Shown here: positions 8,009 through 59,263 of the stretch, in pieces
How positions within the stretch are numbered: position 1 is the stretch's first letter
Layout of the letters: every line of letters begins with the position of its first letter
Assembly (NCBI GenBank): GCA_034521445.1
Contig: JAXHMM010000003.1
Coordinates: 248,001 to 312,000, forward strand
Origin: Balneolaceae bacterium
GTDB lineage: Bacteria > Bacteroidota > Rhodothermia > Balneolales > Balneolaceae
Direction: 5' to 3'
DNA length: 64,000 nt
Translations under genes and position numbers: made by a program
Notes under the pieces: model-generated
What the model saw: the letters and a program-made list of their open reading frames with translations, nothing else
Databases searched by the model: none
Told to the model about the DNA's origin: nothing

Positions 8009-8126
8009 TAACAGATTCAGTCAAAGATCGTTATACTTGCGCATGCAAAGCCGATAAGATACACGGAAAAATCTGGTAATTGAAAACCGCCTTTCCATGC
8101 GGGGGAGCGGGTTCACCGGGCACCAA

Positions 8127-15186: not shown

Positions 15187-15230
15187 ACAAATCCGTTTTA
15201 AGGTTCTCAGTTGCCTCATAAAGTACGACA

Positions 15231-15336
15231 AAGACTTTAAAGTCGAAAAGTCTATAAAGTCAGAAAGTCATTAAAGTCGAAGAGTCTGAAAGTCCACCGA
15301 CTTTGTGACTTCTGGACTTTACGACTTTTAGACTTG
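15231..15336. repeat. GACTT/AAGTC array A
   Basis: About seven AAGTC-type units (one reads GAGTC) are followed by five GACTT units, spaced 7-10 bases apart and meeting at AAGTCCACCGACTT near 15290-15303. The halves are imperfectly complementary, so the transcript of either strand could fold into a long hairpin. It occupies the divergent gap between gatC and ptsH, unlike arrays B-E, which sit at gene ends. The spacers of 2-4 bases vary between units. Confidence 0.85.
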
Positions 15337-15397
15337 GAAGGTAGATAGTTGAACCAAAGTTTATGATCTTGTTGGCCTGAACAAGCTACCTTCCCGG

Positions 15398-15664
15398 ATG
15401 GTCAAGAAGAAAATCACCATTGTAAACGAGGCGGGGCTGCACGCGCGTCCCGCGGCGGCCCTGGTCAAGCTGGCCAGTAAATTTGAATCCGATTTCTTTA
15501 TCCACATGTACGGGTACAAGGTGAACGGCAAGAGTATCCTGGGCGTGATGACGCTGGCCGCCGAGCAGGGAGCCGAACTTGAGCTGGAACTGGACGGTCC
15601 GGACGAAAAGGAGGCTTTTGAAGCCATCAAGGATCTCATTGAAAACGGCTTCGGGGAGTCGTGA
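15398..15664 (+). CDS. ptsH: HPr phosphocarrier protein
   Basis: An 88-residue HPr. The active-site His15 lies in EAGLHARPAA and the regulatory Ser46 in NGKSILGVMTLA, so both the EI phosphorylation site and the HPr-kinase site are kept. HPr passes phosphate from enzyme I to PTS EIIA proteins or regulatory targets. Enzyme I follows at once (GTGA overlap). No EII component is present in the window, so it may be a regulatory PTS or its transporters are elsewhere. Confidence 0.95.
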   Translation: MVKKKITIVNEAGLHARPAAALVKLASKFESDFFIHMYGYKVNGKSILGVMTLAAEQGAELELELDGPDEKEAFEAIKDLIENGFGES

Positions 15665-17409
15665 GAATCATGGAACAGCAGACCCAGGGCGAACAGACGG
15701 TTATCGAGGGGCAGCCGGCCTCGCCGGGACTGGCCCGCGGACCGCTCTGGCGTTACCGCCGGGCGTCCCATACCCTGTCGGACGAGAGGTTGGAGGAGCC
15801 GCAGGTGCAGGATCACCTGGAGCGCTGGGAGGAAGCCAGAAGCCAGGTGGGGGAGGAGCTGGAGCGCATGAAAAGGGAGAAATCCGATCCTGATACCCTC
15901 GCCATCCTGGAGGCCCAGGTGCAGGTGGCCAGGGATCCCGACCTTGACGGGCGCATCCGCAGGGAGATCCGTGAGCGCCTGCGGCCCGCGGACCGGGCCA
16001 TTCACGCTGTCTTTCAAGCCTACCTGCAGGCCATGAATGCCCGCAGCGAGGGGGAGGATGGCCGGTCCGTGGACCTGGAGGATATTCGCGACCGGCTCAT
16101 CGCGCAGGTGCAGGACCGCGAAGAAGAGGATTTCGAGGTGGAGGAGGGCGCGGTGGTCCTGGCGCGCGAACTGAGTGCGCGGGAGGTGATCCGTCTGTCG
16201 GGGCGCCGGATCAGGGCCATCGTCACCGAAAGGGGGGGCGCCCACTCCCACGCCGCCATCATCGCGCGCTCCATGGGCATTCCCACCGTGATGGGTGCGG
16301 GACAGGCCCTGGCAGGAGGCGCGGACGGGACCCTGGCACTCGTGGACGGGGAGGAGGGAACCGTGGTGCTGCATCCCGGCGAAGAGGCCCTGCAGCGATA
16401 CAAGGAGAAATGTGAGGCCTTCGACCGGCGGCGTGAGGCGCGCGCACAGCTTTGCCGGCGACCTTCGGAGACCGACGACGGGCACCCCTTCGCGCTGCGG
16501 GCCAACGTGGAATTTCCCGAGGAGCTGGAGAAGGTCAGGCTATTCTGCGCCGAGGGAATCGGCCTGCTGCGCACCGAATCGGTCTACCTGGAGCGCTCCA
16601 ACTTTGACGACCTGGCCATGCAGGAGGAGTTCTACGATGGTATGCTGGAGCAGACCGGCGAACACCCGGTGACCATCCGGCTCTTCGACGCAGGGGGCGA
16701 TAAGTTTTTCCGGGGCGGGGAGCCCGAGGACAATCCCTTCCTGGGATGGCGGGGCATACGCATGCTGCTGGACGAACGGCAGCTCCTTCGGGATCAGCTG
16801 GAGGCGGTGCTTCGTGTGGCGGGACGTTACCCCGGTCGCGTACGCCTTCTCCTGCCCATGGTGACCGAAACCTCGGAGGTGCGTGAGGTGCGCGAGGAAA
16901 TCAGCCGCCTGCATGACCGGCTGGAGGAGGAGGGCGCGGACGTCGACCGCAACATACAGCTGGGCATCATGATCGAGGTGCCCGCGGTGGCCCTTCAGGC
17001 GCACCACTTTACGGGACTGGTGGATTTTTTCAGCCTGGGCACCAACGACCTGACGCAGTACCTGCTGGCGGTGGATCGCGGCAACGACCGGGTCTCACGT
17101 CTCTACGACCAGCGTCATCCCGCCGTCTGGCGGACGATAAAGCGTTGTGCGGAGGCCGCACGCGAGGGGGACACTTCCGTGGCTATCTGCGGGGAACTGG
17201 CCTCCGACCCTGTGGCGGCCGCCTGCCTGCTGGGCATGGGCGTGGACGACCTGAGCATGTCGCCCTCCCGCATCCCCGAGGTCAAGGAACTGCTCACCGA
17301 ACGAACGCATAACGAGATGGAGGAGCTGGCCGATCGGGCCCTGGCCTCCGAAACCGCGGGCGAGATTCATCGCCTGTTCAAATCCTGGAAAGAGAAACAC
17401 GATGGCTGA
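15661..17409 (+). CDS. ptsI: Phosphoenolpyruvate-protein phosphotransferase (PTS enzyme I)
   Basis: A 582-residue enzyme I that takes phosphate from PEP and gives it to HPr. The phospho-histidine domain has GGAHSHAAIIARS (His near 195). The PEP-binding TIM barrel has RTESVYLERSN, the metal ligands in GIMIEVPA and SLGTNDLTQYLLAVDR, and the catalytic Cys in AICGELASDP near 508. Length is normal. A GTG at 15661 overlaps the ptsH stop (GTGA); an ATG at 15670 is an equally possible start three codons in. The next gene overlaps its end by eight bases. Confidence 0.95.
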   Translation: MRIMEQQTQGEQTVIEGQPASPGLARGPLWRYRRASHTLSDERLEEPQVQDHLERWEEARSQVGEELERMKREKSDPDTLAILEAQVQVARDPDLDGRIRREIRERLRPADRAIHAVFQAYLQAMNARSEGEDGRSVDLEDIRDRLIAQVQDREEEDFEVEEGAVVLARELSAREVIRLSGRRIRAIVTERGGAHSHAAIIARSMGIPTVMGAGQALAGGADGTLALVDGEEGTVVLHPGEEALQRYKEKCEAFDRRREARAQLCRRPSETDDGHPFALRANVEFPEELEKVRLFCAEGIGLLRTESVYLERSNFDDLAMQEEFYDGMLEQTGEHPVTIRLFDAGGDKFFRGGEPEDNPFLGWRGIRMLLDERQLLRDQLEAVLRVAGRYPGRVRLLLPMVTETSEVREVREEISRLHDRLEEEGADVDRNIQLGIMIEVPAVALQAHHFTGLVDFFSLGTNDLTQYLLAVDRGNDRVSRLYDQRHPAVWRTIKRCAEAAREGDTSVAICGELASDPVAAACLLGMGVDDLSMSPSRIPEVKELLTERTHNEMEELADRALASETAGEIHRLFKSWKEKHDG

Positions 17410-18454
17410 AGTGGACCGAAAACGCATTGAATCCGTTGACACCCAGAATATGTGGGAGCTGCTCAGCGATTTCCCCGCACAATGGAGGGAGTCGGTGAGC
17501 CGCACCGAATCGCTGGACCTTACCATAGACGCCTCCCGCATTCGCAGCATCTGCCTGGCCGGCATGGGAGGCTCCGCCATCGGGGCCGACCTGGTACGCG
17601 CCTACAGCTACCACACCTGTCCCCATCCTGTGCAGGTGGTCCGCCACTACGACATTCCGGCCTGGGTGGATGAGCACACCCTTTTCATCTCCTGCAGCTT
17701 TTCGGGCAATACCGAGGAGACCCTCTCGGCGCTTGGACAGGCGCGCGAGCAGGGGGCGCAGACCATAGGGGTCACCTCGGGAGGGGACTTGCTGCGCCGC
17801 GCCAGCCGCGAGGAGTTCGACATCATCCAGATTCCCGGAGGCATGCCTCCGAGGGCGGCGCTGGGCTACAGCTTCGTGCCCCTGTGGCGCATATTCCGTC
17901 ACCTGGACTATCTCGGCGAGGGCGAGGGGGCGCTGGAGGAGACGGCGCACCTGCTGGAAGAGCAGGCCGAAATGTACCGCGATTTGAGCGATAACGAGGC
18001 GCTGCAGCTGGCGGAAGACCTCAACGACACCCTGCCGGTGATCTACTCCGACGCCCTGCTCATGGAGCCGGTCAACCTGCGCTGGAGGGGACAGTTCGGG
18101 GAGAACGCCAAAACCCTCGCCTACGGCAACACCCTGCCCGAAATGAACCACAATGAGATTGTGGGCTGGGAGCGGGTGGTGCACCTGACCGGGCGCCTGT
18201 CGGTCATTATGCTGGTGGACAAGGAGGACAAGCCCAGGGTGCGGCGGCGCATGGAGATCGTCGAGGAGCTGGTGGCCGACCAGACCACGGGGGTGCACCG
18301 GCTCACTACGCGCGGCAAGAGCCGCCTGGCGCGCATGTTCTCCCTGGTGCAGATGGGCGACTGGACCAGCTACTACCTCGCCCTGATCAACGGCGTGGAT
18401 CCCACGCCCATCGCCAAAATCGACCTGCTAAAAAGCCGCCTCGCGGAGAGCTGA
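17402..18454 (+). CDS. Bifunctional phosphoglucose/phosphomannose isomerase
   Basis: A 350-residue SIS-fold isomerase of the bacterial/archaeal PGI-PMI type, which interconverts fructose-6-P with glucose-6-P and mannose-6-P. SICLAGMGGSAIGADLVRAY (about 50-69) and SCSFSGNTEETLSA (98-111) are the two sugar-phosphate-binding SIS elements, and NHNEIVGWE (251-259) is the conserved C-domain motif. It overlaps ptsI by eight bases and precedes birA by two. It would link glycolysis to mannose-based nucleotide sugars for surface glycans. Confidence 0.92.
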   Translation: MAEVDRKRIESVDTQNMWELLSDFPAQWRESVSRTESLDLTIDASRIRSICLAGMGGSAIGADLVRAYSYHTCPHPVQVVRHYDIPAWVDEHTLFISCSFSGNTEETLSALGQAREQGAQTIGVTSGGDLLRRASREEFDIIQIPGGMPPRAALGYSFVPLWRIFRHLDYLGEGEGALEETAHLLEEQAEMYRDLSDNEALQLAEDLNDTLPVIYSDALLMEPVNLRWRGQFGENAKTLAYGNTLPEMNHNEIVGWERVVHLTGRLSVIMLVDKEDKPRVRRRMEIVEELVADQTTGVHRLTTRGKSRLARMFSLVQMGDWTSYYLALINGVDPTPIAKIDLLKSRLAES

Positions 18455-18456
18455 CC

Positions 18457-19242
18457 GTGTTCGACGCCGAACGCTTTGAAAAGCTGCTGGAGACCCGCTG
18501 GCTGGGTCACGGGGGACACTTTTTCGAGGAGCTGCCCTCCACCAACAGCTATATGAAAGAGCAGCCGGCCTCCGGGATCACCCACGGCATGCTCTGCCTG
18601 GCAGACCACCAGACGCGCGGCCGTGGTCAGTATGAGCGAAGCTGGGAGACCGAAGCCGGATGCAATCTCACCTTCACCCTCTGCTTCCGTCCACCCCGGG
18701 TCGACCGCCTCCATGTGCTTACCCTCACCTGCGCCCTGGCCCTGCTCCGGGAGATGGAGAAGGAGCTGGGGGAGGGGGAGGTCACCCTCAAATGGCCCAA
18801 TGACGTCCTGGTCGGCGAGCGCAAGGCTGCCGGCCTGCTGACCGAGACCGTCTTCAACGGAAACCGGCTGGACCGCGTACTGGTGGGCATCGGACTCAAC
18901 GTCAACCAGGAGCGTTTTCCCGGTGAGCTGGGGGAGACGGCCACTTCCATGCGGCGGGTCAAAGGTGATGAGATCGACCGGGAGGCCTTGCTGGCGCGGC
19001 TGCTCTCCCGGCTGGAGTATGAGTACGGGCGATGGAACCGGAACAAGACCGACCTCCTGCGTGAAATCAACCGTTCCCTCAGGGGATACGGGCAGTGGGT
19101 GCGCCTGCAGGTGAACGGGGAGAGGTGGGATGATACCTACAAATTTCTGGGCGTCAGCGAGGCCGGCCGCCTGCTGGTGGTCGACCACGACGGAGGACTC
19201 AAATCTTTCAGCTATGAGCAAATCAGACTGGTCCCCGCTTGA
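18457..19242 (+). CDS. birA: Biotin-[acetyl-CoA carboxylase] ligase, no DNA-binding domain
   Basis: A 261-residue class I biotin protein ligase that makes biotinyl-AMP and attaches biotin to the AccB carrier. Visible motifs are PSTNSYMKE (27-35), QTRGRGQYERSW (the GRGRxGRxW biotinyl-AMP loop), LKWPNDVLVG and VGIGLNVNQE. There is no N-terminal helix-turn-helix, so it should not act as a repressor. It starts two bases after the isomerase stop; its start codon is GTG at 18457. The 3' end overlaps tilS by 29 bases. Confidence 0.93.
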   Translation: MFDAERFEKLLETRWLGHGGHFFEELPSTNSYMKEQPASGITHGMLCLADHQTRGRGQYERSWETEAGCNLTFTLCFRPPRVDRLHVLTLTCALALLREMEKELGEGEVTLKWPNDVLVGERKAAGLLTETVFNGNRLDRVLVGIGLNVNQERFPGELGETATSMRRVKGDEIDREALLARLLSRLEYEYGRWNRNKTDLLREINRSLRGYGQWVRLQVNGERWDDTYKFLGVSEAGRLLVVDHDGGLKSFSYEQIRLVPA

Positions 19243-20656
19243 GGAGGAGGTCCGCCGCCGGGTGAACGAGCATTTCGGCGCGGAGCTCCCCGGTGCGCCC
19301 GATTCGGGTGGCCGGCACCCGGCTGTATCCGCTGGGGAGGAGGGTGGTGGCCGGGCATCCGGCAGCCTCCCCCTATTCGTGCTGGGAGTGAGCGGGGGAC
19401 CCGATTCCATGGCGCTGATGTACGCCCTCCACCGGCTGGGTCTCCCTGCGCTGGTCGCCCACGTCAACTACCAAAAGAGGGGGGAGGCCTCCGACCGCGA
19501 CGCCGAACTGGTGGAGGAGCTTGCCTTTCAGTGGGGCTTCGACTGCCACACCGCGGCGGCGGACCCAGAGGAGGCGGAAGGGGAAAATTTCCAGCAGTGG
19601 GCGCGCGATTTCCGCTACGACTTTTTTCGCGCCTTGCGACGCGACCACAGCTGCGAGGGCATCGCCGTGGCCCACCACCAGGACGACCAGGCCGAGACCA
19701 TCCTGCAGAAGCTCTTTCGCGGGGCCGGGCTGGCCGGCTGGCAGGGCATGGAGGTATGGGACGGGGAGCTCTTTCGTCCCCTGCTCCGCCTCTCCCGTGA
19801 GGACATTGAACGCTACCTGGAGGAGCACGAGGTGCCCTGGCGCACCGATGAGAGCAACCTGAAGAGCGATTTTGCCCGCAATTTCCTGCGACGGGAGTGG
19901 CTGCCGGAGCTGGAGCGCCATTTTCCCGGATGGAAGTCCAACGTGCTGCGCGCAGGAGATCAGGCCGGGATTTTCCAGGATGCCCTGGCGTGGATCGGCC
20001 GGCGCGTCAGCGGGGAGCGCGGGGGACTGAATCGCGAGGCGCTGCTCTCCCTGGAGCCCGGTCTGGCAAAGGCGCTGGTGCTGCACCGTCTGCGGCGGGA
20101 GCTGCCCGGCGCCCCTGTAAGCGGTAATGCGCTCGACGAACTGGAGAAGCTTCCCGAACTGCAGACCGGCAAGGCCATCCGCCTTGCCGAAGGGGTGGAG
20201 GTGATGCGCGACCGCGAGCTGTTCAAAATTGTGGTCGACACGGGCCAGCGCTCCGTTTCGATCCCTCTGGAGCGTGAGGCCCTGGAGCAGAAAGCCTTTA
20301 CCTTTGACGGGCTATCCTTCCGGGTGGCCGGATACCGGGACCCCGATTTCGACCGCAAGCTCTACCTGGAGGCCGGCGCGCTGGCCTGGCCGCTCACCCT
20401 GCGGCGATGGCGGGAGGGCGACCGGTTCCGGCCTTTCGGCATGGAGGGCACCCAGCTGGTTTCGGACCACCTGACCAACCGGAAAGTGGCGGCAGATCTT
20501 CGCGGACGCGCGCTCGTGCTGGAGGCCTTGGACGAAACCATCGCGGCGGTTATCTTTCCGCCTTCCGAAAAGCGGCTGCCCCCCGGCACCATTTCGGAGG
20601 AGGTCCGCTGCGGCCCGGAGACCGGCTCGTGCCTGGTAATCAGCCGCAACAAATGA
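19214..20656 (+). CDS. tilS: tRNA(Ile)-lysidine synthetase
   Basis: A 480-residue TilS that converts C34 of tRNA-Ile(CAU) to lysidine. The ATP-pyrophosphatase loop is GVSGGPDSMALMYAL (58-72). AVAHHQDDQAETILQKLFRG and the C-terminal RRWREGDRFRPFGM (TilS C domain) complete the family pattern. I take the ATG at 19214 (MSKSDWSPLEEE), which overlaps birA by 29 bases; the upstream extension is a birA-frame artefact. The stop TGA (20654-20656) overlaps the first unit of GACTT array B. Confidence 0.93.
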   Translation: MSKSDWSPLEEEVRRRVNEHFGAELPGAPDSGGRHPAVSAGEEGGGRASGSLPLFVLGVSGGPDSMALMYALHRLGLPALVAHVNYQKRGEASDRDAELVEELAFQWGFDCHTAAADPEEAEGENFQQWARDFRYDFFRALRRDHSCEGIAVAHHQDDQAETILQKLFRGAGLAGWQGMEVWDGELFRPLLRLSREDIERYLEEHEVPWRTDESNLKSDFARNFLRREWLPELERHFPGWKSNVLRAGDQAGIFQDALAWIGRRVSGERGGLNREALLSLEPGLAKALVLHRLRRELPGAPVSGNALDELEKLPELQTGKAIRLAEGVEVMRDRELFKIVVDTGQRSVSIPLEREALEQKAFTFDGLSFRVAGYRDPDFDRKLYLEAGALAWPLTLRRWREGDRFRPFGMEGTQLVSDHLTNRKVAADLRGRALVLEALDETIAAVIFPPSEKRLPPGTISEEVRCGPETGSCLVISRNK

Positions 20657-20747
20657 CTCCCTGACTTCGGACTTCCAGACTTCGGACTTCTGGACTTCCC
20701 GACTTCGGACTTTCAGACTTTCTGACTTATTAGACTTTAAGACTTGT
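20655..20747. repeat. GACTT array B
   Basis: Twelve GACTT-type units (the first GACTC) in one orientation, separated by 1-4 bases, fill the gap between tilS and hpt. The tilS stop lies in the first unit and the last unit ends six bases before the hpt TTG start. Bases 20694-20722 are identical over 29 bases to 32680-32708 in array E. With only one orientation it cannot fold like arrays A and D. Confidence 0.88.
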
Positions 20748-20752
20748 AGAGC

Positions 20753-21316
20753 TTGTATAGCCCCGACCATTTACAGTGCAACGGCGAGACCTTCCGCATC
20801 TATCTTAGCCGGGAGGAGATACAGCAGCGCGTCGCCGAACTGGGGGAGGAGTTGAGCGAACAATATGCCGGAAAGCGACCCATCTTCATCGGCGTGCTGA
20901 ACGGGGCCTACATTTTTCTCTCCGACCTGATGCGCCAGGTTGAGATCCCCTGTGAGGTGGACTTCCTGAAGCTGAGCAGCTACGGGGACGAGAAGGTATC
21001 CTCCGGCCAGGTGACCGACCTCAAGGACATCGACGCCGATATCGCCGGGCGCCATGTGGTGCTGGTGGAGGACATTGTTGACACCGGCCTCTCCATGAAG
21101 TACCTGGTGGACAAGCTGAAGAAAAAGAGGCCCGCCTCCATCGCCACCGTCACCCTCCTCCACAAGTCCGAAGCCACCCAACACGATGTGCAGCTCGACT
21201 ACGTGGGCTTCCGCATTCCCACCCTTTTTGTGCTGGGCTACGGGCTGGACTACGCCCAGGAGGGGCGCAACCTGGCACAGATTTACATACAGGAAAAGGG
21301 CGGGGAGGAGGCATAA
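20753..21316 (+). CDS. hpt: Hypoxanthine phosphoribosyltransferase
   Basis: A 187-residue purine-salvage enzyme that joins hypoxanthine or guanine to PRPP. The PRPP loop is VVLVEDIVDTGLSM (102-115), and GVLNGAYIFLSDL (47-59) is the family's second loop. The only usable start is TTG at 20753, since an in-frame TAG lies six bases upstream and no ATG or GTG follows before the conserved region. The start falls right at the end of repeat array B, so the repeat supplies the whole 5' leader between tilS and hpt. Confidence 0.92.
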   Translation: MYSPDHLQCNGETFRIYLSREEIQQRVAELGEELSEQYAGKRPIFIGVLNGAYIFLSDLMRQVEIPCEVDFLKLSSYGDEKVSSGQVTDLKDIDADIAGRHVVLVEDIVDTGLSMKYLVDKLKKKRPASIATVTLLHKSEATQHDVQLDYVGFRIPTLFVLGYGLDYAQEGRNLAQIYIQEKGGEEA

Positions 21317-21376
21317 GTCCCGGTCCCATTCCGCGTTGAATTCAAGCTGCAGCGGGCTTATATTTGTGGCTCTCTC

Positions 21377-21465
21377 GGAGAGGTGGCTGAGTGGTCGAAA
21401 GCGCTCCCCTGCTAAGGGAGTATACCCTCAACAGGGTATCGAGGGTTCGAATCCCTCCCTCTCCG
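21377..21465 (+). tRNA. tRNA-Ser (GCT)
   Basis: An 89-base tRNA. The acceptor stem GGAGAGG (21377-21383) pairs with CCTCTCC (21458-21464), with discriminator G. The anticodon stem-loop CTCCC-CTGCTAA-GGGAG gives anticodon GCT, reading AGC/AGU serine codons. A long variable arm (ATACCCT...AGGGTAT) confirms a class II tRNA-Ser. The T arm GAGGG-TTCGAAT-CCCTC is intact. CCA is not encoded. A low-GC two-gene module follows 58 bases downstream. Confidence 0.96.
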
Positions 21466-21523
21466 CTCTTTTCTATTTTTCAGGTTCGACCATTTATTCC
21501 CATCCGTGTCGAACTTCCGGGTG

Positions 21524-21736
21524 CTAGTCATCGATGGGCTTCAGTTTGTAGATGCGTCCATACTCTGAGGCTTTCCCGAAGTTTTTCTGTTTCAGCGCTT
21601 CTCGCACCTCATCCAATCTGGAGGCATCTTCTACGCTCAAATAGGGAGACCATGCATCCTCTGTGGTTATGACTTCTACTTCTACCTCGGCTACGTACAG
21701 GCCTTCGTGAATGTATTTGGTCTTTTTTCGGGTCAT
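21524..21736 (-). CDS. Small hypothetical protein paired with a DUF4258 gene (possible antitoxin)
   Basis: A 70-residue protein of no family I can name. It begins with basic MTRKKTKYIHEG, followed by a beta-rich acidic stretch (YVAEVEVEVI) and a helical segment (LDEVREALKQKN). It lies six bases downstream of the DUF4258 gene, and DUF4258 proteins are often paired with a small partner. The module is clearly lower in GC than its surroundings. The antitoxin role is inferred from position only. Confidence 0.65.
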   Translation of the reverse strand: MTRKKTKYIHEGLYVAEVEVEVITTEDAWSPYLSVEDASRLDEVREALKQKNFGKASEYGRIYKLKPIDD

Positions 21737-21742
21737 GACATT

Positions 21743-22078
21743 TTAGTCGATTCTATACATAAATGTTGGATCCCAACGTGTAGGATCCGGTCTATATGCG
21801 GTAACTAATACGGCCGGTTGGTCGTGGCCTTTGGGTATGCCCCATAATACATGAACGGGTTTTCCCGCCGCATCATATTGTAAAAGCAATATACATTTTC
21901 CCTTTGGAAAATTCGGGTATTCCTCAACAATAAGAGCATCATTCAAACCGGTTAAAATATCTGCCACACGGATCTGATCGGCTGCAAGCTCTTCGTATCC
22001 ATGCTCGGATATGCGTACCAAGCCATGTGCAACTAGGTAAACGATATGTGCATATAGGTCACGCAATAGGAAGACCAC
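21743..22078 (-). CDS. DUF4258-domain protein (RelE-like toxin candidate)
   Basis: A 111-residue protein. The core RISEHGYEELAADQIRVADI, the segment ALIVEEYPNFPKGKCILLLQ and the closing VLVTAYRPDPTRWDP match the DUF4258 pattern, which is thought to be related to RelE/HigB-type mRNA interferases. The first 22 residues are unusually hydrophobic and could be an over-extension; no later ATG fits well. The gene is first in a two-gene, low-GC minus-strand unit next to tRNA-Ser. Toxicity is not shown. Confidence 0.72.
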   Translation of the reverse strand: MVFLLRDLYAHIVYLVAHGLVRISEHGYEELAADQIRVADILTGLNDALIVEEYPNFPKGKCILLLQYDAAGKPVHVLWGIPKGHDQPAVLVTAYRPDPTRWDPTFMYRID

Positions 22079-22228
22079 TTTTCCTGGAACGATTTCTTGG
22101 AATTCAGTGACCCTCCGTGCCCTCCTTCCTTACATCTCAAGAAGGCAATAGTTATTGATTCCTTGAGACTTATTGGTTATGGTTCGGTGAATTTGGTCTA
22201 CGGAAACCCTCACCAAGCCTTCTCATCC

Positions 22229-25459: not shown

Positions 25460-25532
25460 AGTCTATCTATAAAGTCATAAAGTCTTGAAGTCCTGAAGTC
25501 GGAAAGTCATAAAGTCGGAAAGTCATGACGTC
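25451..25532. repeat. GACTT/AAGTC array C
   Basis: It opens with the 13-base palindrome GACTTTTAAAGTC (25451-25463), which contains the TAA stop of the upstream gene, and continues with about eight AAGTC-type units at 8-10 base spacing in one orientation. A GC-rich intrinsic terminator hairpin follows 11 bases later. Confidence 0.85.
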
Positions 25533-25543
25533 TGATGCTTGCA

Positions 25544-25575
25544 GGGGATCCCGGTTTTCCGGGGTCCCCTTTTTA
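25544..25575 (+). terminator. Intrinsic terminator after the Asp-box gene
   Basis: GGGGATCCCGG (25544-25554), loop TTTT and CCGGGGTCCCC (25559-25569) form an 11-bp stem with one G-U pair, followed by TTTTT (25570-25574). It stands just beyond array C, so the array itself is probably transcribed as 3' untranslated RNA. Confidence 0.82.
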
Positions 25576-25709
25576 CTGGTGCGGCTCTCCCAGGCGATAG
25601 ACCTTGCCACCGCTGTGTCCGGCTCGGCCTAATCTATATTGTGTCTATCCGCCGCCCTTGTTTACATGGGGTGTTGACGCACTGGATCGGATACCAACCT
25701 ACGTAGCGC

Positions 25710-27665
25710 ATGTCTGACAACGGCCATACGGAATCCCCATCCCCCGACGGTATCTCATCTGGCCTCCTCCGGTTCGAGATGGCCATGACTGCAGTCTGCA
25801 CGCTCAGCCTGGCCTCTGGATTTTTCGGGGAGCTGCTGGGCTTAATCGGGCCGGCCGCGGCGAATATGTTCTATATGGCCGCCTATGCCGCCGGCGGGTA
25901 CGCCGGGGTCCGCGAGAGCCTGAAGGCACTCAGGCACGGCGAGCTGAATGTGGATTTGCTGATGATCCTGGCGGCGGCCGGCGCGGCGGTGATCGGCGAG
26001 TGGCTGGAGGGTGCGGTGCTTCTGTTTCTCTTTTCTCTTAGCAACACCCTGCAGTATTACGCCATGGGACGCAGCCGAAGGGCCATTCGCTCCCTGATGA
26101 AACTGAGGCCGGACCGGGCCCTGAAGGTCTTTAGTGACGGACGCGAAGAAGAGGTGCCTGTGGAGGAGCTCAGTCCCGGCGACCGGATCAGGGTGAAACC
26201 GGGCGAGCGCATCCCCATGGACGGGGTGGTGGAGGAAGGGGAGAGCAGCGTCAACCAGGCGGCTATTACCGGCGAGAGCATGCCCGTTGTCAAGGAGGAG
26301 GGGGACGAGGTCTTTGCGGCCACCCTCAACGGGGGAGGTGTGCTCACCCTCAAGGTTACCCGTCACGCCCACGAGACCGCCCTGGCCAAAATCCTGCGGA
26401 TGGTGGAGGAGGCCCAGGGGCGCAAGGCCGAAACCCAGCGCTACCTCGACGACTTCGAGTCACCCTACGCCCTGGGCGTTATCCTGGTTACCGTTGGACT
26501 CATCCTGGTTCCATGGCTGCTGCTGGGCGAACCCTTCGATCCGACTTTTTACAGGGCCATGACCGTGCTGGTGGTCGCCTCCCCCTGCGCGCTGATCATC
26601 AGCACCCCTGCCAGCATCCTTTCGGCCATCGCCATCGCGGCCCGCAACGGGGTGCTCTTCAAGGGCGGGGCTTTCCTCGAGCAGGCCGCCTCCATTGAGA
26701 TGGTGGCCTTTGACAAGACGGGAACGCTCACCACGGGCGAGCCGCAGGTCACCGACGTGCTGGTGACGGAGGCCGTTCGCTCCGGGGAGGACGATCCGGG
26801 AGAAGGTGTCACCGAAGAGGAGATTCTTGCCCTGGCTGCCTCCGCCGAGGAGCACTCCGAACACCACCTGGCGGCCGCCATCCTGGAGAAGGCCCGCCGG
26901 GAGGGCGTCACGTGGAAGCGCGCGGCGGAGGTACAGGCCGATGCGGGCAAGGGCATCACCGCCATAGTCGAAGGCCGAGAGGTGCGTGTGGGCAACCGGA
27001 AGATGTTTCCCGGCGTGATGGAGAATCTGCCCGCCTCCCTGAAGGAACGTATCGAGGATCTTCGCAGGGAGGGAAAGACCTACGTGTTCGTGGAGCGCGA
27101 TGGAACAGTCATTGGCCTGATTGCCATGGCCGACACGCTAAGGGAGGATGCGCCCGGAGCCCTGCAGGCCCTGCGGGAGCTGGGCATTAAGGAGCTGGTG
27201 ATGCTGACCGGAGATCTGCCCTCGGTGGCGGAGGCCATCGGAGAAAAGCTGGGCATGGACCGAATCTACGCCGAACTGCTGCCCAACCGCAAGGTGGAAC
27301 TGGTGCGCGAGCTGGCGGCCGGTCGCCCCGTGGCCATGGTGGGGGACGGGGTCAACGACGCCCCCGCGCTGGCCGGCAGCAACATCGGCATCGCCATGGG
27401 AGCGGCGGGCACCGACGTGGCCCTGGAGACGGCCGACGTGGTGTTGATGTCGGACGACCTGATGAAAATACCATGGCTGATACAACTTTCCCGAAGGGCC
27501 AGGAGGGTGGTGTGGCAGAACATCGTCTTCAGCCTTGCGGTCATAGCCGTGCTGGTAGCCTCGGTCTTTTTGTTTGATCTGCCGCTGCCTCTGGGGGTGG
27601 TGGGGCACGAGGGAAGCACCCTGTTGGTCGTTCTCAATGGTCTTCGGCTTTTAAAGTCTGACTAA
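25710..27665 (+). CDS. P1B-type heavy-metal ATPase, P1B-4-like (Co/Zn/Fe export)
   Basis: A 651-residue metal-pumping P-type ATPase of the inner membrane. It shows the actuator loop TGESMPV (about 189-195), phosphorylation site DKTGTLTTGEP (335-345), nucleotide-domain SEHHLAAAI and hinge GDGVNDAPAL (near 546-555). The membrane metal motif is SPCAL (about 290-294), not CPC, and the last helix has HEGSTLLVVLNGLRLL. SPC with HEG(G/S)T marks subgroup P1B-4, whose members export Co, Zn or Fe. There is no N-terminal HMA domain or Cys-rich tail. The protein ends LLKSD and its stop lies in array D. Confidence 0.9.
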   Translation: MSDNGHTESPSPDGISSGLLRFEMAMTAVCTLSLASGFFGELLGLIGPAAANMFYMAAYAAGGYAGVRESLKALRHGELNVDLLMILAAAGAAVIGEWLEGAVLLFLFSLSNTLQYYAMGRSRRAIRSLMKLRPDRALKVFSDGREEEVPVEELSPGDRIRVKPGERIPMDGVVEEGESSVNQAAITGESMPVVKEEGDEVFAATLNGGGVLTLKVTRHAHETALAKILRMVEEAQGRKAETQRYLDDFESPYALGVILVTVGLILVPWLLLGEPFDPTFYRAMTVLVVASPCALIISTPASILSAIAIAARNGVLFKGGAFLEQAASIEMVAFDKTGTLTTGEPQVTDVLVTEAVRSGEDDPGEGVTEEEILALAASAEEHSEHHLAAAILEKARREGVTWKRAAEVQADAGKGITAIVEGREVRVGNRKMFPGVMENLPASLKERIEDLRREGKTYVFVERDGTVIGLIAMADTLREDAPGALQALRELGIKELVMLTGDLPSVAEAIGEKLGMDRIYAELLPNRKVELVRELAAGRPVAMVGDGVNDAPALAGSNIGIAMGAAGTDVALETADVVLMSDDLMKIPWLIQLSRRARRVVWQNIVFSLAVIAVLVASVFLFDLPLPLGVVGHEGSTLLVVLNGLRLLKSD

Positions 27666-27790
27666 GTCTAATAAGTCATAAAGTCTCCCAAGTCAGAAAG
27701 TCTTAAAGTCTGATAAGTCGAAAAGTCAGAAAGTCGTAAAGTCGGATGCCCGACTTCGGACTTTTCGACTTATCAGACTTTAAGACTTTC
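27652..27790. repeat. GACTT/AAGTC array D with a perfect 32-base inverted repeat
   Basis: Eleven AAGTC-type units are followed by five GACTT units. Bases 27696-27727 are the exact reverse complement of 27759-27790 (32 of 32). The 31-base centre contains a further small hairpin, AAGTCGG-ATGC-CCGACTT. The array lies between two convergent genes and contains both stop codons: the TAA of the ATPase (27663-27665) and that of the YjbQ protein (27780-27782, minus strand). A bidirectional terminator or RNA-end protector is plausible; there is no clear U tract. Confidence 0.9.
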
Positions 27791-28202
27791 CATGGATGGT
27801 CACGACCAGACGGCGCGATCCCCCGCTGTTGCGATGCTCGCAGAGCCAGATGCCCTGCCAGGTGCCCAGGTTCAGGCGGCCGTTGGTGACAGGCACGGTC
27901 AGATCATGACCCAGCAGGGAGCTTTTGATATGGGAGGTCATGTCGTCCGGTCCCTCCAGGGTATGCTCGTAGAGGGAGGTGTCTTCCGGGACCATACGCT
28001 TGAAGTGCGAAAGGAAGTCGCGCCGGACCGCCGGATCGGCGTTCTCGTTCAGTGTGAGGGAGGCGCTTGTATGCAGAATGAAAAAGTGGGCCAGTCCCCG
28101 TTCCATATGTTCCAGGCCCTCAAGCTGGTCGAGTACCTCGTCGGTAACCAGATGGTAGCCGCGCGATTTTGGGGAAAGGGTTATTTCCTGTTGGTGCCAC
28201 AT
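27780..28202 (-). CDS. YjbQ/UPF0047 family protein (secondary thiamine-phosphate synthase)
   Basis: A 140-residue YjbQ-family protein. [20 protein letters not shown] (about 44-63) and the C-terminal [20 protein letters not shown] (113-132) are diagnostic. Some members have weak thiamine-phosphate synthase activity, but the physiological role is uncertain. The ATG at 28200-28202 lies two bases after the SDR stop, so the two are one operon. The last codons (HGKS then TAA) are formed by the end of array D. Confidence 0.88.
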
Positions 28203-28204
28203 TA

Positions 28205-28981
28205 TTAACCAAAAAGTCCCTTGATGCTGCCGCCGTCGTGGCTTATGGTTTGTCCTGTCACGTATCCGGCCTTCGGCGAAAGCAGCCACGCCGCCAGGCT
28301 GGCGATCTCGCCCGCCTCTCCCATGCGTCCCACGGGTATGGCCTCCTCCATGTCGGCCTTCATCTCCTCGAAGCTCATGTCGCTGTCGTCGGCCTCTTTG
28401 CTGATCACGCGGTCGATGGCGGGCGTGTTGTGGGAACCGGGCGCCAGAACGTTGACGGTCACGCCCTCCCCGGCGACCTCGAGAGAGAGGCTCTTGGCGA
28501 AGCCCACCATGCCGGAGCGAAAGGCATTGCTGAGCACCAGCTTGGGCAGGGGCTGCTTGACCGACTGGCTCTCGATGAAGAGCATGCGGCCGTAGCTGTT
28601 GGCGGTGAAATAAGAGACCAGTCGCAGGGCCAGTTCCACCTTCCAGCGCATAACTTTGTTGTAGGCTTTGTCCCAGTCCACCAGGGCCGTCTCCAGGGGA
28701 GTCAGTGCGGGCGGCCCTCCCGCGTTGAAGACCACTCCGTGCAGGCTGTCGTTGCCGATGGCCGCCTCGATTTCGTTGTGGGTATCCTCCTGCAGCAGGT
28801 TGCCGGCCACCACGGTCACCTGGCCGGGGAAGTCCCCGGAGAGTTCCTCCAGCTTTTCCTGGCGGCGGGCGACGGCGATGACCTGCGCGCCCTCCTCCAG
28901 CAGCTGTTCGGCAATGGCGCGTCCGAAGCCGCTGCTGGCTCCGCATACGATAAAACGCTGTTCGGCAATCTCTAGGTCCAT
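28205..28981 (-). CDS. SDR-family oxidoreductase lacking the usual YxxxK
   Basis: A 258-residue Rossmann-fold protein of the short-chain dehydrogenase superfamily. The dinucleotide loop is [16 protein letters not shown] (13-28), with FNAGGPPAL and [14 protein letters not shown] further on. Where typical SDRs have the catalytic YxxxK it reads [19 protein letters not shown], with no Tyr, as in a divergent '3-oxoacyl reductase-like' subgroup. Catalysis by the standard mechanism is therefore doubtful. I chose the ATG at 28979-28981; an open extension to 29182 looks non-coding. It precedes the YjbQ gene in an operon and is divergent from typA. Confidence 0.86.
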
Positions 28982-29247
28982 GTGTTGTGGGGTGTTTCGG
29001 GTTGAGGTTGGTATGCCGGTGTGCCGTATAGATATAACACGTAAAGTCCGGCCGGTTGGTTCCCGGTGGGCGGTTGGAGGCCGGGCAGGGTGCCCTCCAA
29101 GGTATCCATCAACCGTTAAAAAATATAGCCGCGATCTCTCCGTCCCCCTGCCGCGGGAGTGGAAGAAAAGGGGAGGCGCCATGCGGAGTTGTGCGCAAAA
29201 TGCCTTATTTTGAAAGTCTTTTTGAACCCCGATTTTACCGCGCCTGT

Positions 29248-31080
29248 ATGAGTACCGACCTGAGAAATATCGCCATTATCGCCCACGTGGACCACGGCAA
29301 GACCACCCTGGTGGACCAGATGCTGCGCCAGAGCGGCACCTTCCGGGAGAATCAGCAGGTGAGAGAGAGGGTGATGGACTCCGGCGACCTGGAGCGGGAG
29401 AAGGGTATCACCATCAGCTCCAAAAACACTGCCATACGCTGGAAAGGCACCAAGATCAACATCGTGGACACCCCGGGCCACGCCGATTTCGGCGGGGAGG
29501 TGGAGCGCATCCTCAAGATGGTGAACGGGGTGATCCTGCTGGTGGACGCCGCCGAGGGACCCCTCCCGCAGACCAAGTTTGTGCTTCGGAAGTCCCTGCG
29601 CATGGGCTTCCGGCCCATTGTGGTGATCAACAAGATCGACCGCAAGGACGCGCGCCCCGACGAGGTGCTCAACGAAATCTTCGATCTTTTCGTGATACTG
29701 GATGCCGACGACGATCAGCTCGACTTTCCCCTGCTATACGCCGTTGGACTGGAGGGCATGGCCAAGCGGGAGCTGGAACATGAGGGCGGGGACCTGACGC
29801 CTCTTTTCGAAACCATCGTGGAGCATGTGCCCGCCCCCGAACAGCAGCTCGACGCCCCATTCAAGATGCTGGTGAGCAGCATCGACTGGAACGACTACGT
29901 GGGACGCATCGCCATCGGCCGCGTGGAACAGGGACGCATTCGCCTGAACCAGGAGATTGCGCTGCTGGACCGCAAGGGCAACCTGAAGGAGAAGGCGCGC
30001 GCGACCAAGCTGTATACTTTTTCGGGACTGGGACGCGAACCGGTGGAGGAGGCCGTGGCGGGAGACATCTTCGCAATGGCCGGCTATCAGCAGACCGACA
30101 TAGGCGACACGCTGACGGCGGCCTCCGACATGACGGCCCTGCCCTACCCGGACATCGACCAGCCCACCATGGCCATGTTCTTCCGGGTCAACGACTCGCC
30201 CTTCTCGGGCCTGGAAGGCAACTACGTGACCTCCAACCAGATCGAGGACCGCCTGATGCGCGAGATCCGCACCAACGTGGCCATCAAGGTGGAGGAGACC
30301 TCCAGTCCGGACATCTACCGGGTGGCCGGGCGGGGTGAGCTGCAGCTGGCCGTACTCATCGAGACCATGCGGCGCGAGGGCTACGAGTTTTCCGTCTCGC
30401 GACCGGAGGTTCTGATGAAGGAAATCGACGGGTCGATCCACGAGCCCTTCGAGGAGGTGGTGGTCGACGTGCACCAGGACTACGCCAATCGGGTGATCGA
30501 CAACCTGCAGAAGCGCAGGGGTCTCATGACCTCGATGACCTCCGAGGGCGAGAACAACCGCCTGGTTTTTGAGGCGCCTTCGCGCGGACTCATCGGTTTT
30601 CGCGGGGAGATGCTCACTGAGACGCGCGGTACGGGCGTCATGCATCAGCAGTTCGAGGAATACCGTCCCCACGCCGGGGAGGTGCCCACCCGCAACCGCG
30701 GGGCGCTCATCGCCCTGGAGAGGGGAGAGGTGACCTCCTACGCCCTGGAGGGGTTGCAGGACCGCGGCACCTTCTTTGTGAATCCGGGCGAAGCGGTGTA
30801 CGGGGGACAGGTGGTGGGCAGCAATAACCGATCCGACGACCTGGTGGTCAACGTGGTCAAGAAGAAGAATCTCACCAACCACCGCGCCACCCAGAGCGCC
30901 GACGCCGTCAAGATCGATCCCGCAAAGAAGATGAGCCTGGAGCAGTGCATCGAGTTTATTGCGCGCGACGAGCTGCTGGAGGTGACCCCGGAAAGCCTGC
31001 GCATCCGCAAGCTGCATCTCGATCCCAACGAGCGCAAGCGTGCAGAAAAGAAAGGACTGAAGGAGGGCCTGCAGGCCTAG
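29248..31080 (+). CDS. typA: Ribosome-associated GTPase TypA/BipA
   Basis: A 610-residue translational GTPase related to EF-G and LepA. The G1 loop is [10 protein letters not shown] (12-21), G3 is DTPGHADF and G4 is NKIDR. The C-terminal TypA domain has [17 protein letters not shown] and [15 protein letters not shown] text ([20 protein letters not shown]). It binds the ribosome under stress or cold and helps 50S assembly in other bacteria. The ATG at 29248 matches the family start; the frame is open 64 codons further upstream without similarity. The stop shares a CTAG with the convergent gene. Confidence 0.95.
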
Positions 31081-31637
31081 GATTCTGCATTGGCACCCCT
31101 TCCGGCCTCAGCAGAGGACTCAGACCCGGTCCCGGTTCCCGTCTCCGCCTCCGGCCGGTAGCGAGCGAACGCCTTCTCCGCCCAATGATCCCTGCGCGTG
31201 TAGTAGAAGTATCCGCCAATCAGCATGATTCCCCCGGTGGCGTAGCCCACCATGCCAAAGAAAGGCGTGTCGGGCACCCGCGTAAGCACCTCCGACACGA
31301 AGGCCGCGTAGAGTCCCATCACCGACCAGTACATCCACGCCAGGTGGGCCATGAGCCAGCTTTTTGAGGTGCGCCGCACGGCCGGGATAATGCCGGCCAC
31401 CACGGTCACCAGGCTGAGCATGGCGGCGACGTGGAAGACCCCGAAGCCCCCGAAAAGGCGGTAGATGAGGAAGGCCGTCAGGTTCAACGTCAGCATGGCA
31501 CCGAAGTAGACGTAGCCTATCTTGCGGTGACGTTCGGTTCCCTTGGGGGTAAAGAGGATCCAGGTGCCGGTGACGAGGGCGACTACGGCAGCCGCCAGGT
31601 GCACCGCGCCGGTAGCGTCGTGAACGAGGTAGTTCAT
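31077..31637 (-). CDS. DUF2306-like membrane protein
   Basis: A 186-residue inner-membrane protein with about five hydrophobic helices (for example AVHLAAAVVALVTGTWILF). HRKIGYVYFGAML and WLMAHLAWMYWSVMGLYAAF resemble DUF2306 proteins of unknown function. The C-terminal 30 residues are hydrophilic and rich in Glu, Gly and Ser. It ends in a CTAG shared with typA and lies four bases downstream of the helix-turn-helix gene, forming a three-gene minus-strand unit. Confidence 0.75.
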   Translation of the reverse strand: MNYLVHDATGAVHLAAAVVALVTGTWILFTPKGTERHRKIGYVYFGAMLTLNLTAFLIYRLFGGFGVFHVAAMLSLVTVVAGIIPAVRRTSKSWLMAHLAWMYWSVMGLYAAFVSEVLTRVPDTPFFGMVGYATGGIMLIGGYFYYTRRDHWAEKAFARYRPEAETGTGTGSESSAEAGRGANAES

Positions 31638-31641
31638 GTGT

Positions 31642-31971
31642 TCAGTCGTTTTCGGTGGAGGGAGGTTCTGGTGTTGAGCTGTCGTCGGGATCGATGTATT
31701 GCTTTAGGGTATCGACATAGGACTCGAAGGCCTCCAGGCCCTGGGGGGTAATCCGGCAGCGGGTGCGTGGCTTCCGGTCCACAAAAGTCTTCTCCACCTC
31801 GATGTAGCCCGCCTCCTCCAGCTTGCTGAGCTGCACGCTCATGTTGCCCGAGGTGGCGCCGGTCTGCTCCATCAGGTAGGTGAAATCGGCGTGTTCCACG
31901 CTCAGCAGCAGGGACATGACGGCCAGCCGAAGCTGGGAGTGCAGAAGCGGATCCAGGTCGTCGAAACTCAT
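31642..31971 (-). CDS. Winged-helix transcriptional regulator
   Basis: A 109-residue protein with an ArsR/MarR-like winged helix. FTYLMEQTGATSGNMSVQLSKLEEAGYIEVEK (split here as helix pair ATSGNMSVQLSKLEEAGYI and wing VDRKPRTRCRITPQGLEAF) is the 'HTH_27' pattern commonly found beside a small membrane protein that it regulates. The tail is acidic and Ser/Pro-rich. It starts one base from the stop of the upstream membrane-protein gene. The likely target is its own operon; the signal is unknown. Confidence 0.82.
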   Translation of the reverse strand: MSFDDLDPLLHSQLRLAVMSLLLSVEHADFTYLMEQTGATSGNMSVQLSKLEEAGYIEVEKTFVDRKPRTRCRITPQGLEAFESYVDTLKQYIDPDDSSTPEPPSTEND

Positions 31972-31972
31972 C

Positions 31973-32575
31973 TCAGGAATCCTCCCCGCTGTTCTTCAGC
32001 AGGTAGCCGGGCACCAGGTAGCCCCCGGCGACGGCTGCGGCGGTGGCCAGGAGCTGCCAGGCTAAGGGCAGCAGAAAGGCCGCGATGGCCAGGGCCCAGA
32101 TGAAATAACCCCCGTATTTCAGGGGAGGGAACCGCAGTACGCAACCTGAGAGGAAGGTGGAACCGGCGGCCAGCAGGAGCACCAGGGGGGTCAGGTAGTG
32201 GGGGTCGGCGCTGAGGAAATAGATGATGAGGAAGTAGTTGGCCAGGAAGACCATCCAGATGGTGGAGTATACCCGGTTGGGGTACGTGCGCACCTCTTCC
32301 GTGCGGCCGTCTCGTGCGCCCTTCACAAAGGAGGCGATCACGCCCACGGCTATGACCGCCCATGCCCACTCGGGGCGGGCTGTCAGTTCAACGTGCAGCA
32401 GCAGGAAGTGTCCCAGGCTGCCCGCCAGGATGATCCATCCCCACAGCAGGAAGTAGAAGGCCTGACTGCGAAAGTCGCCCTTCGCCCGCGAGATCATGTC
32501 CCGTATCAGGGCCAGGCTCTCCCGGCCGCTCATCGATTCGCCCGTAGGCTCCTTGCTCTGTTCCATGGTCGGCAT
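31973..32575 (-). CDS. Hypothetical membrane protein upstream of the winged-helix regulator
   Basis: A 200-residue protein with an N-terminal soluble segment (about 1-38, with SLALIRDMISRAKGDFRSQA) and five or six hydrophobic helices. Small membrane proteins of this shape occur together with HTH_27-type regulators in Bacteroidota; I do not recognise a biochemical function. The start at 32575 (MPTMEQ) could also be the ATG at 32566. A good promoter candidate lies just upstream, so it is probably the first gene of the unit that continues to 31077. Confidence 0.72.
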   Translation of the reverse strand: MPTMEQSKEPTGESMSGRESLALIRDMISRAKGDFRSQAFYFLLWGWIILAGSLGHFLLLHVELTARPEWAWAVIAVGVIASFVKGARDGRTEEVRTYPNRVYSTIWMVFLANYFLIIYFLSADPHYLTPLVLLLAAGSTFLSGCVLRFPPLKYGGYFIWALAIAAFLLPLAWQLLATAAAVAGGYLVPGYLLKNSGEDS

Positions 32576-32602
32576 GTATTGGTTTGCATCTTAATTCAGA
32601 TA

Positions 32603-32633
32603 CAATTATAAACTACTTTATAAAATAAAGCAA
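32603..32633 (-). promoter_or_regulatory. Candidate promoter of the membrane protein/regulator operon
   Basis: On the minus strand, TTG (32633-32631), a 20-base spacer and TATAATTG (32610-32603) match the TTG-N20/21-TATnATTG form also seen before rpsL and 16S. It lies 28 bases before the start at 32575 in an AT-rich gap. Confidence 0.5.
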
Positions 32634-32671
32634 GTGTGTATGCACCTGCCCGACAGATATACGAACAAAAG

Positions 32672-32748
32672 GACTTCGAACTTCCCGACTTCGGACTTTC
32701 AGACTTTCCGACTTTATGACTTAGTAGACTTTAAGCCTTTAAAGACTA
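32672..32748. repeat. GACTT array E
   Basis: About nine GACTT-type units (variants AACTT, GACTA) in one orientation relative to the plus strand. The array runs into the recG 3' end, so the recG stop (TAG on the minus strand, 32746-32748) is part of the final GACTA unit. Bases 32680-32708 repeat 29 bases of array B exactly. Confidence 0.86.

Positions 32749-56332: not shown

Positions 56333-59263
<2,931 letters not shown>

Follow-up and report, generated by a model that had tools for sequence, protein, structure and literature searches.

The window, i.e., the whole 64-kb stretch of DNA that was analyzed, contains five intergenic arrays of the pentamer GACTT or its complement AAGTC, and all five were confirmed in the sequence at the positions given by the original prediction. 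Array 1 lies in the divergent gap between gatC (PF02686) and the gene for HPr (PF00381) and was read as an AAGTC arm of 7 units with its head inward (15240 to 15294, − strand), a CACC centre joining the two arms (15295 to 15298, strand not given), and a GACTT arm of 5 units (15299 to 15335, + strand). Array 2, a lone GACTT arm of 11 units (20663 to 20745, +), fills the gap between tilS and hpt. Array 3 is a lone AAGTC arm of 7 units (25472 to 25524, −) with tail cores that start at 25451, and its tail supplies the stop codon of a Sortilin/BNR-repeat gene (end at 25459). Array 4 occupies a convergent gap, with an AAGTC arm of 11 units (27654 to 27743, −) that includes the stop codon of a P-type ATPase gene (gene end 27665), and a GACTT arm of 5 units (27752 to 27788, +) that includes that of a UPF0047 gene (− strand, end 27780). 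Array 5, a lone GACTT arm of 8 units, 7 of them exact (32672 to 32731, +), has its tail separated by 14 bases from where recG ends (− strand). Exact cores numbered 12, 11, 9, and 16 in the first four arrays, within the predicted range of 9 to 16, but only 7 in the fifth; the spacers, predicted to be of 1 to 4 bases, were mostly of 3 and also of 1, 2, and 4, but 5 bases occurred too. No other GACTT pair spaced by 1 to 5 bases was present in the 64 kb, as had been claimed.

Arrays 1 (15240 to 15335) and 4 (27654 to 27788) are two-armed inverted structures, a feature that had been overlooked. Among the five window arrays, only these two folded clearly better than shuffled sequences, array 4 very stably (z −11), while folding of the lone-arm arrays 2, 3, and 5 was not clearly better than that of shuffles. 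A clear copied spacer run between arms was seen for array 4 only, where the outer spacers of the GACTT arm (TTC-ATCA-TAA) recur in the AAGTC arm, perhaps as a result of template switching between arms (excerpts of PMC8604942). In an Rfam scan of positions 15000 to 33000, one tRNA alone reached the gathering score and no family did so at the arrays; microRNA-precursor matches on array 4 fell below gathering and were read as reflecting its palindrome. As judged by eye, a separate hairpin and T-run come after array 3. The gap before hpt measured 96 bp here, with array 2, versus 5 to 18 bp in seven relatives, a comparison covering the forward-strand matches (7 of 29 relatives' loci), with the upstream frame assigned as tilS by position.

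These five arrays are a local cluster within a family that extends across the whole genome, which speaks against the local spread or regional role suggested originally. The search of both strands for GACTT-N1-4-GACTT-N1-4-GACTT gave 443 matches in the genome (212 + 231) and 0 for the reversed control, and 43 clusters with at least 4 cores were found in 1.156 Mb (contig C3 and C5:1-500000); the family comprises ~80 arrays in this genome. When 512 pentamer classes were compared in ~1.16 Mb, AAGTC/GACTT made 42 runs of at least 5 at 7- to 9-base steps and the runner-up, which has letters in common with it, made 4, which excludes a chance origin and leaves GACTT/AAGTC as the sole class so arrayed in the sequence scanned. 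The repeat unit is GACTT plus ~3 bases (YHH), about an octamer, and spacers in the stretches read were mostly of 3 bases, with 1, 2, 4, and 5 found as well. Interior cores were exact in 257 of 268 cases, yet the spacers were of 70 kinds and 1 to 5 bases long; because array detection requires exact cores, this conservation of the core is exaggerated.

Arms are AT-rich at the outer end, the tail, and C-rich at the inner end, the head, and spacer GC drops from head to tail (0 of 2,000 permutations were equally steep). For neighbouring arms within 1 kb, the order AAGTC-then-GACTT was observed in 14 pairs and the opposite order in 0. Such inward pairs form terminal inverted repeats able to pair, as in elements of the intervening sequence (IVS) type, while lone arms (23 of 51) do not. 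Spacer match between arms of one element was not above the cross-element level (own 24.1, cross 25.6), and an RNA stem maintained by spacer pairing was rejected, arm-arm likeness being no higher than between different elements. Repeated spacer runs were found within one arm (C3:377953-378061). The unit and period are presumably unlike those of CRISPR, REP, ERIC, and Correia elements. No match to an already named repeat family was obtained, either as an Rfam gathering-score match or as a description of such GACTT arrays in the literature searched.

The placement of the arrays was, like their frequency, nonrandom. Genes were called by a home-made caller, by which 4 of the 43 clusters were called coding, perhaps wrongly. 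Arm tails mostly abut or provide stop codons, with 30 of 47 within 25 nt of a stop and 7 of 47 within that distance of a start, and the repeat family furnishes host genes with stop codons; in one instance it also contributes residues of the C terminus. Convergent gaps held 14 of 39 non-coding clusters though they make up 58 of 517 gaps of at least 60 nt; in these cluster counts two arms of one element were sometimes counted as two. All gene-border types were used: divergent gaps also hold arrays, codirectional gaps hold lone arms in both orientations, and in the S6-S18 ribosomal gap a four-unit array occupies 29 of the 36 bases.

Presence in related species, raised by the original prediction as a point to check, was not observed: a four-unit GACTT run was found in 0 of the 57 nearest genomes searched, and conservation of the arrays across relatives was rejected. 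None of the nearest genomes listed belonged to the same genus. GACTT arrays were present in 1 of 243 other genomes of the class (G127), with units unlike those seen here, and in 8 of 394 others in a phylum sample, where reversed-pentamer arrays were similarly common by genome count (10 versus 9 of 395). GACTT-N3 arrays occurred in many unrelated genomes, mostly with identical units. Flavobacterium caeni, which is available in culture, is among the array bearers. Viral carriers were also rejected, with 3 viral contigs having repeats of identical units only.

One array pair led to a protein family. S23 (PF05635) is the protein encoded in 23S rRNA intervening sequences, a four-helix bundle for which we know of no settled role. 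The one PF05635 match found in this genome is enclosed by a GACTT-type arm pair and is among the 3 of 954 called genes with such array flanks; in the stretches read, 1 of 14 array pairs encloses S23, and none of the five window arrays does. The only further pair of widely spaced arms, separated by 467 nt on C3, held no trace of S23, and a decayed S23 gene was rejected there. No insert was found in the genome's two 23S rRNA genes (match positions 1 to 2925 in 2,935 to 2,936 bases). To our knowledge, no mobility enzyme is attached to such elements. According to the excerpts of PMC4990558, the 23S rRNA IVS of Coxiella burnetii is hairpin-like, is bounded by terminal inverted repeats, encloses an S23 gene, has been termed selfish, and carries heptamer tandem repeats of variable number just before the S23 ORF. 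The S23 locus described here is likewise hairpin-like, with terminal inverted repeats around an S23 gene, but the GACTT arrays lie between protein genes and not within 23S rRNA, their inverted parts are degenerate octamer arrays, and most copies are without an ORF. PF05635 also resembles the Avd protein of diversity-generating retroelements, and homology between 2GSC and 4DWL has been suggested (excerpts of PMC10053308); unlike such retroelements, this genome had 0 matches to the reverse transcriptase family PF00078 (97.8% complete).

We then compared S23 genes and their flanks in a set of 77 (80 before removal of three identical proteins), taken from relatives and from genomes selected because they carry GACTT arrays, and hence not a random sample. 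Strong inverted flank repeats, i.e., with a score over the 99th percentile of mismatched pairs, were found at 31 of the 77 S23 genes, compared to 0 of 300 genes of our genome and 4 of 143 neighbour ORFs, and the median inverted flank score was 30 for S23 versus 17 to 18 for controls. Direct-sense flank repeats exceeded the threshold at 4 of 77. Pentamer runs numbered 39 in the 77.5 kb adjoining S23 and 16 in 407 kb elsewhere (own loci L255 and L201 excluded; four runs were counted in duplicate because of an overlap between L258 and L299). With L255 omitted, leaving 76 of the 77, the C-over-G contrast of the right versus the left flank was +0.42 for S23 (65/76 positive) and −0.18 for neighbours (45/143; p 1.7e-21), and its sign was the same whichever strand S23 lay on. 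When pyrimidines alone were compared between the flanks of S23, the contrast was weak (mean 0.03 to 0.05, 49 to 50 of 76 positive in two inner windows). S23 proteins were present in all 29 chosen genomes versus 0 of 14 control genomes. Genomes were assigned for 24 of the 117 array loci listed, with a preference for loci with varied spacers and for genomes that recurred. In the reverse test, 8 S23 ORFs were found among the 117 GACTT loci listed, 6 of them no more than 90 nt from an array. At an orthologous site, compared by eye and with a poor MAFFT alignment, one relative had arms plus S23 (L313) and another arms without S23 (L325); the site search found the gene at 19 of 22 loci, with a downstream neighbour common to two only.

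GACTT arrays and S23 flanks thus have an anatomy in common, and the best explanation we can offer, still a tentative one, is that most of the GACTT arrays represent copies, lacking an ORF, of a hairpin-like selfish S23 (IVS-type) element outside rRNA. The mobile-repeat remains listed as one candidate in the original prediction are therefore favoured by the evidence, but through the likeness of the arms to S23-flanking inverted arrays, which had gone unseen. A repeated protein-binding site, another of the original candidates, is also possible. A full element would consist of a purine-rich AAGTC array, an S23 gene in the loop, and a pyrimidine-rich GACTT array; it would be kin to the 23S rRNA intervening sequences, yet placed between protein genes. 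Lone arms would be what remains after loss of the other arm, and we infer that such mobile S23 elements gave rise to the orphan arrays or spread them. Array length may shift by slippage, and the five-base core may be kept since a protein, perhaps an S23 multimer, binds it. The arrays would bring no host benefit and would persist where they are least harmful, at stop codons. Counting against this reading, there is one S23 match for ~80 arrays in this genome, 46 of the 77 S23 genes were not over the strict flank threshold, and seven relatives have 2 to 13 PF05635 matches each, yet no four-unit GACTT run. The high share of lone arms, the second wide pair devoid of S23, the two 23S rRNA genes free of inserts, the lack of a known mobility enzyme or of a reverse transcriptase match, and the weak pyrimidine contrast also tell against it. 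In 21 other GACTT-array genomes, a GACTT pair within 400 nt was found at 6 of 47 S23 loci versus 8 of 80 neighbour ORFs; the arrays near S23 in those genomes are mostly built on other cores, so that an origin of orphan GACTT arrays in S23 elements was not seen there. In one genome (G257), the core of the S23 element, GAAGT, has hardly spread as orphans, since it forms 8 triplets genome-wide, 4 of which adjoin that element's own S23 gene.

It is also possible, though doubtful, that S23 genes outside rRNA in general supply the coding portion of selfish elements that form a widespread but unrecognised class and end in inverted degenerate short-repeat arrays. The S23 protein, a ring of five chains in each of the two solved entries, would then bind the core of its own arms, keeping the core constant and letting ORF-less arrays spread across a genome, as those of GACTT would have done here. 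No description of a tie between S23 and inverted short-repeat arrays was found in the literature searched. Such a tie yields a concrete, cheap hypothesis, namely binding of S23 to the repeats on either side of its gene, and would account for the origin of at least some unexplained short intergenic arrays.

The arrays could instead be a slippage-born satellite, i.e., degenerate-octamer simple repeats in intergenic space, with S23 merely found in such places and no causal tie to it. The mostly identical units of GACTT-N3 arrays in unrelated genomes, the repeated spacer runs inside one arm, the similar frequency of reversed-pentamer arrays in the phylum sample, and the TAACTGA precedent in Beggiatoaceae (excerpts of PMC4679880) all fit this. 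We nevertheless consider it unlikely, since slippage alone fails to account for a fixed arm order (14 versus 0), for arms with a head motif and graded GC, for inverted arrays being enriched around S23 genes, or for constant cores beside variable spacers, a contrast that exact-core detection exaggerates.

A host function appears less probable again. TRAP is a ring protein that reads repeated short sites, and a DNA- or RNA-binding protein reading GACTT sites at 8-base steps would agree with a core far steadier than the spacers, with only one kind of core forming arrays in 1.16 Mb of sequence, and with the position at gene borders. Such a regulatory or architectural array is improbable, as every kind of border is used, codirectional lone arms point both ways, the nearest relatives manage without arrays (0/57), and a candidate protein was not found. 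We give still less credence to bidirectional transcription terminators or RNA 3′-end hairpins, despite the overuse of convergent gaps, the tails near stop codons, and the stable fold of array 4. Arrays filling the S6-S18 and tilS-hpt gaps and those in divergent gaps argue against termination, the arm spacers are unmatched within elements, only 2 of the 5 window arrays fold clearly better than shuffles, and array 3 is followed by its own hairpin and T-run. Intrinsic terminators combine a stable hairpin with a T-run at transcript ends only, and the arrays do not; the RNA 3′-end role originally put forward is weakened accordingly.

The STRR heptamers of cyanobacteria are short-unit tandem arrays with many copies per genome. 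Unlike the GACTT arrays, LSSR/STRR units repeat one sequence, and we know of none among them that show a head, a tail, and a fixed inverted polarity. The cyanobacterial LSSR covered in the excerpts of PMC4679880 likewise consist of short units in tandem and recur many times in a genome. The same excerpts describe TAACTGA heptamer direct repeats in Beggiatoaceae, Cyanobacteria, and some Bacteroidetes, which resemble the GACTT arrays in that they form a large family of short tandem repeats between genes, have a patchy distribution over phyla, sometimes overlap gene ends, and in some cases are missing at the same site in relatives. TAACTGA is a fixed heptamer without variable spacer, whereas GACTT has 70 spacers of 1 to 5 bases, and no S23 link is described for it in those excerpts. 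The Beggiatoa repeats, with one inverted set of 170, run mostly in the forward direction and lie immediately ahead of start codons (excerpts of PMC4679880), whereas GACTT tails lie near stops.

Reading and a pattern search confirmed the five GACTT/AAGTC clusters of the original prediction at their positions in the window, with 12, 11, 9, 16, and 7 exact cores in order, and no further GACTT pair of this kind was found by pattern search in the 64 kb. Two are two-armed arrays (15240-15335 and 27654-27788), with an AAGTC arm, a short centre, and a GACTT arm, and the remaining three are single arms. The regional restriction proposed for them was, however, not borne out. The window's own genome (G000; 3.2 Mb, 18 contigs) contained 212 forward and 231 reverse triplets (three cores with 1-4 base spacers), compared to 0 matches for the reversed-pattern control over the whole genome, and the family, with 443 triplets, is not local. 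Detailed reading covered 1.156 Mb (contig C3 whole and C5:1-500000) and identified 43 clusters with at least four cores. Among the 512 pentamer classes in this sequence, GACTT/AAGTC formed 42 runs of at least five at 7-9 base steps, four letter-sharing classes formed 2-4 each, and all remaining classes formed none. The arrays of this genome are not chance. By our own count, the sequence read contains 233 of the 443 triplets, and extrapolation therefore gives roughly 80 arrays for the genome.

Across 51 arms in the sequence read, the core was exact in 359 of 370 units and in 257 of 268 interior units, which somewhat overstates core conservation since arm detection requires exact cores; degenerate units such as GACTC were visible beyond some heads. 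Spacers were of 70 kinds, with a length of three bases in 225 of 319, and in these the first base was C or T in 220 and the second was G in only 5. The inner arm end (head) is C-rich and frequently carries CRCC or CCCC ahead of the first GACTT, single arms included; the outer end (tail) is rich in A and T, with GACTTTAAGACTT a common sequence. Spacer GC dropped from head to tail (slope -0.06 per unit in 45 non-coding arms; 0 of 2000 permutations equally low). Neighbouring arms within 1 kb were ordered AAGTC-then-GACTT in 14 cases, six of them separated by just 4 bases, while the reverse order was found in 0 and equal orientation in 2. The spacers of the two arms of an element did not match one another when compared, indicating retention of the core and its orientation rather than of a perfectly paired stem.

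Using home-made gene calls for gene borders, 39 of the 43 clusters were non-coding. Convergent gaps held 14 of these, codirectional gaps 20, and divergent gaps 5 (an element with two arms was in some cases counted twice), compared to 58, 332, and 127 such gaps of at least 60 nt, respectively. The tail was no more than 25 nt from a stop codon in 30 of 47 non-coding arms and equally close to a start codon in 7; the other 10 tails were further away. In the window, array tails contain the stop codons of the Sortilin-like, P-type ATPase, and UPF0047 genes. A four-unit array occupies 29 of the 36 bases separating the genes for ribosomal proteins S6 and S18. The gap ahead of hpt is 96 bp in this genome versus 5-18 bp in relatives (seven, read in forward sense), so the array there is extra sequence. 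Between hpt and the Sortilin-like gene, a tRNA gene (21377-21465) scored above the Rfam gathering score.

A four-unit GACTT run was found in 0 of the 57 nearest genomes and, among 243 further members of the class, in 1. In the phylum sample, it occurred in 8 of 394 other genomes, and the reversed pattern in 10 of 395. Scanning named genomes gave at least 117 GACTT loci in many phyla; among the matches listed, most were identical-octamer repeats, and some had varied spacers. A search of 23 foreign genomes reached via such loci gave relaxed triplet counts of 4 to 240, with low reversed-pattern counts in most, except for one genome (G265; 101 reversed versus 4).

The widest array pairs in the sequence read were 467 and 627 nt apart, and the latter encloses an ORF matching PF05635/TIGR02436, the S23 protein known from intervening sequences in 23S rRNA. 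This was the sole PF05635 match in a whole-genome search of G000, and only 3 of 954 called genes had AAGTC triplets to the left and GACTT triplets to the right within 400 nt. Complete 23S rRNA genes were present at 56332-59267 in the window, without an intervening sequence, and, as a second copy, at C3:167463-170397.

Visual inspection of the first 30 S23 loci showed inverted arrays of short period to either side of many, with diverse cores, and a few (e.g., L232 and L236) had no plain arrays. A non-random sample of 77 distinct S23 genes for which both flanks were available gave a median flank-to-flank score of 30 inverted and 18 direct (inverted higher in 63 of 76), compared to inverted scores of 17 for 300 G000 genes and 18 for 143 neighbour ORFs. 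Of the 77, 31 scored above the 99th percentile for mismatched pairs of S23 flanks, versus 0 of 300 and 4 of 143. The sequence up to 300 nt from S23, 77.5 kb in total, contained 39 pentamer runs of at least four (four double counts), versus 16 in 407 kb away from it. Regardless of S23 strand, the right flank was enriched in C and the left in G (contrast of +0.42, with 65 of 76 positive; neighbour ORFs -0.18, positive in 45 of 143). The GACTT arrays have this same polarity; the contrast in plain pyrimidine content was weak. For this sample, there is good support for S23 genes often having inverted arrays to either side. The 117 GACTT loci listed contained 8 S23 ORFs, of which 6 were no more than 90 nt from an array, although 14.8% of the sequence falls within 500 nt of one. 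However, in 21 other GACTT-array genomes S23 genes were not specially near GACTT arrays (6 of 47 versus 8 of 80 neighbour ORFs), the arms there having mostly other cores. In one genome (L300; G266:C76), a 35-unit GACTT run terminates at an S23 ORF whose opposite side bears CTGTC, GTCTA, and GTCCA arrays. At another locus (L261; G016:C6:178500-188000), three S23 genes are packed into roughly 3.6 kb, with a short TTCAG run nearby.

In a different genus of the same taxonomic family, two species have flanking genes and inverted GAGT-type arms in common at one site; S23 lies between the arms in one (L313), with no trace of it in the other (L325). The upstream gene's stop codon lies inside the arm in both, likewise in G000. 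By eye, L325 (reverse complement, past the gene end) has a hairpin-rich, CCGAAGCTCCAGCTTCGG-like intergenic sequence in S23's place, and L316 has a similar one between its arms; this is perhaps a different repeat family of that genus. The proposed derivation of the orphan GACTT arrays, those without an S23 ORF, from S23 elements rests on G000, the shared anatomy, and this one orthologous site.

The two-armed array may be a hairpin element in a short, ORF-less state, with S23 carried by the long form. The Coxiella intervening sequence resembles such a long form, with an inverted-repeat stem and an S23 gene, and its heptamer tandem repeats, variable in number and directly ahead of the S23 ORF, fit the hairpin-element view (PMC4990558). 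A protein reading the repeated cores would account for the kept core and orientation, and S23, with five chains in each of its solved structures (2gsc and 2rld), is the obvious candidate for this putative reader. We infer that the element is mobile. No reverse transcriptase was found in G000; PF05635 is described as resembling Avd, a protein found with diversity-generating retroelements (PMC10053308). Searches of an open-access collection, with most subscription papers and all preprints outside its scope, gave no description of GACTT arrays or of a general S23-array association.

An arm at G000:C5:409136-409162 (L196:9136-9162) encodes the C-terminal residues (...KALKSLKSIKS) of a DinB-like protein, and an array can thus change how a protein ends. 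On contig C2 (L016:8062-8327), 22 AAGTC cores lie within an ORF (7707-8759) whose start resembles, by eye, translation initiation factor IF-2, and the array is translated as an acidic Glu/Val/Ser-rich stretch.
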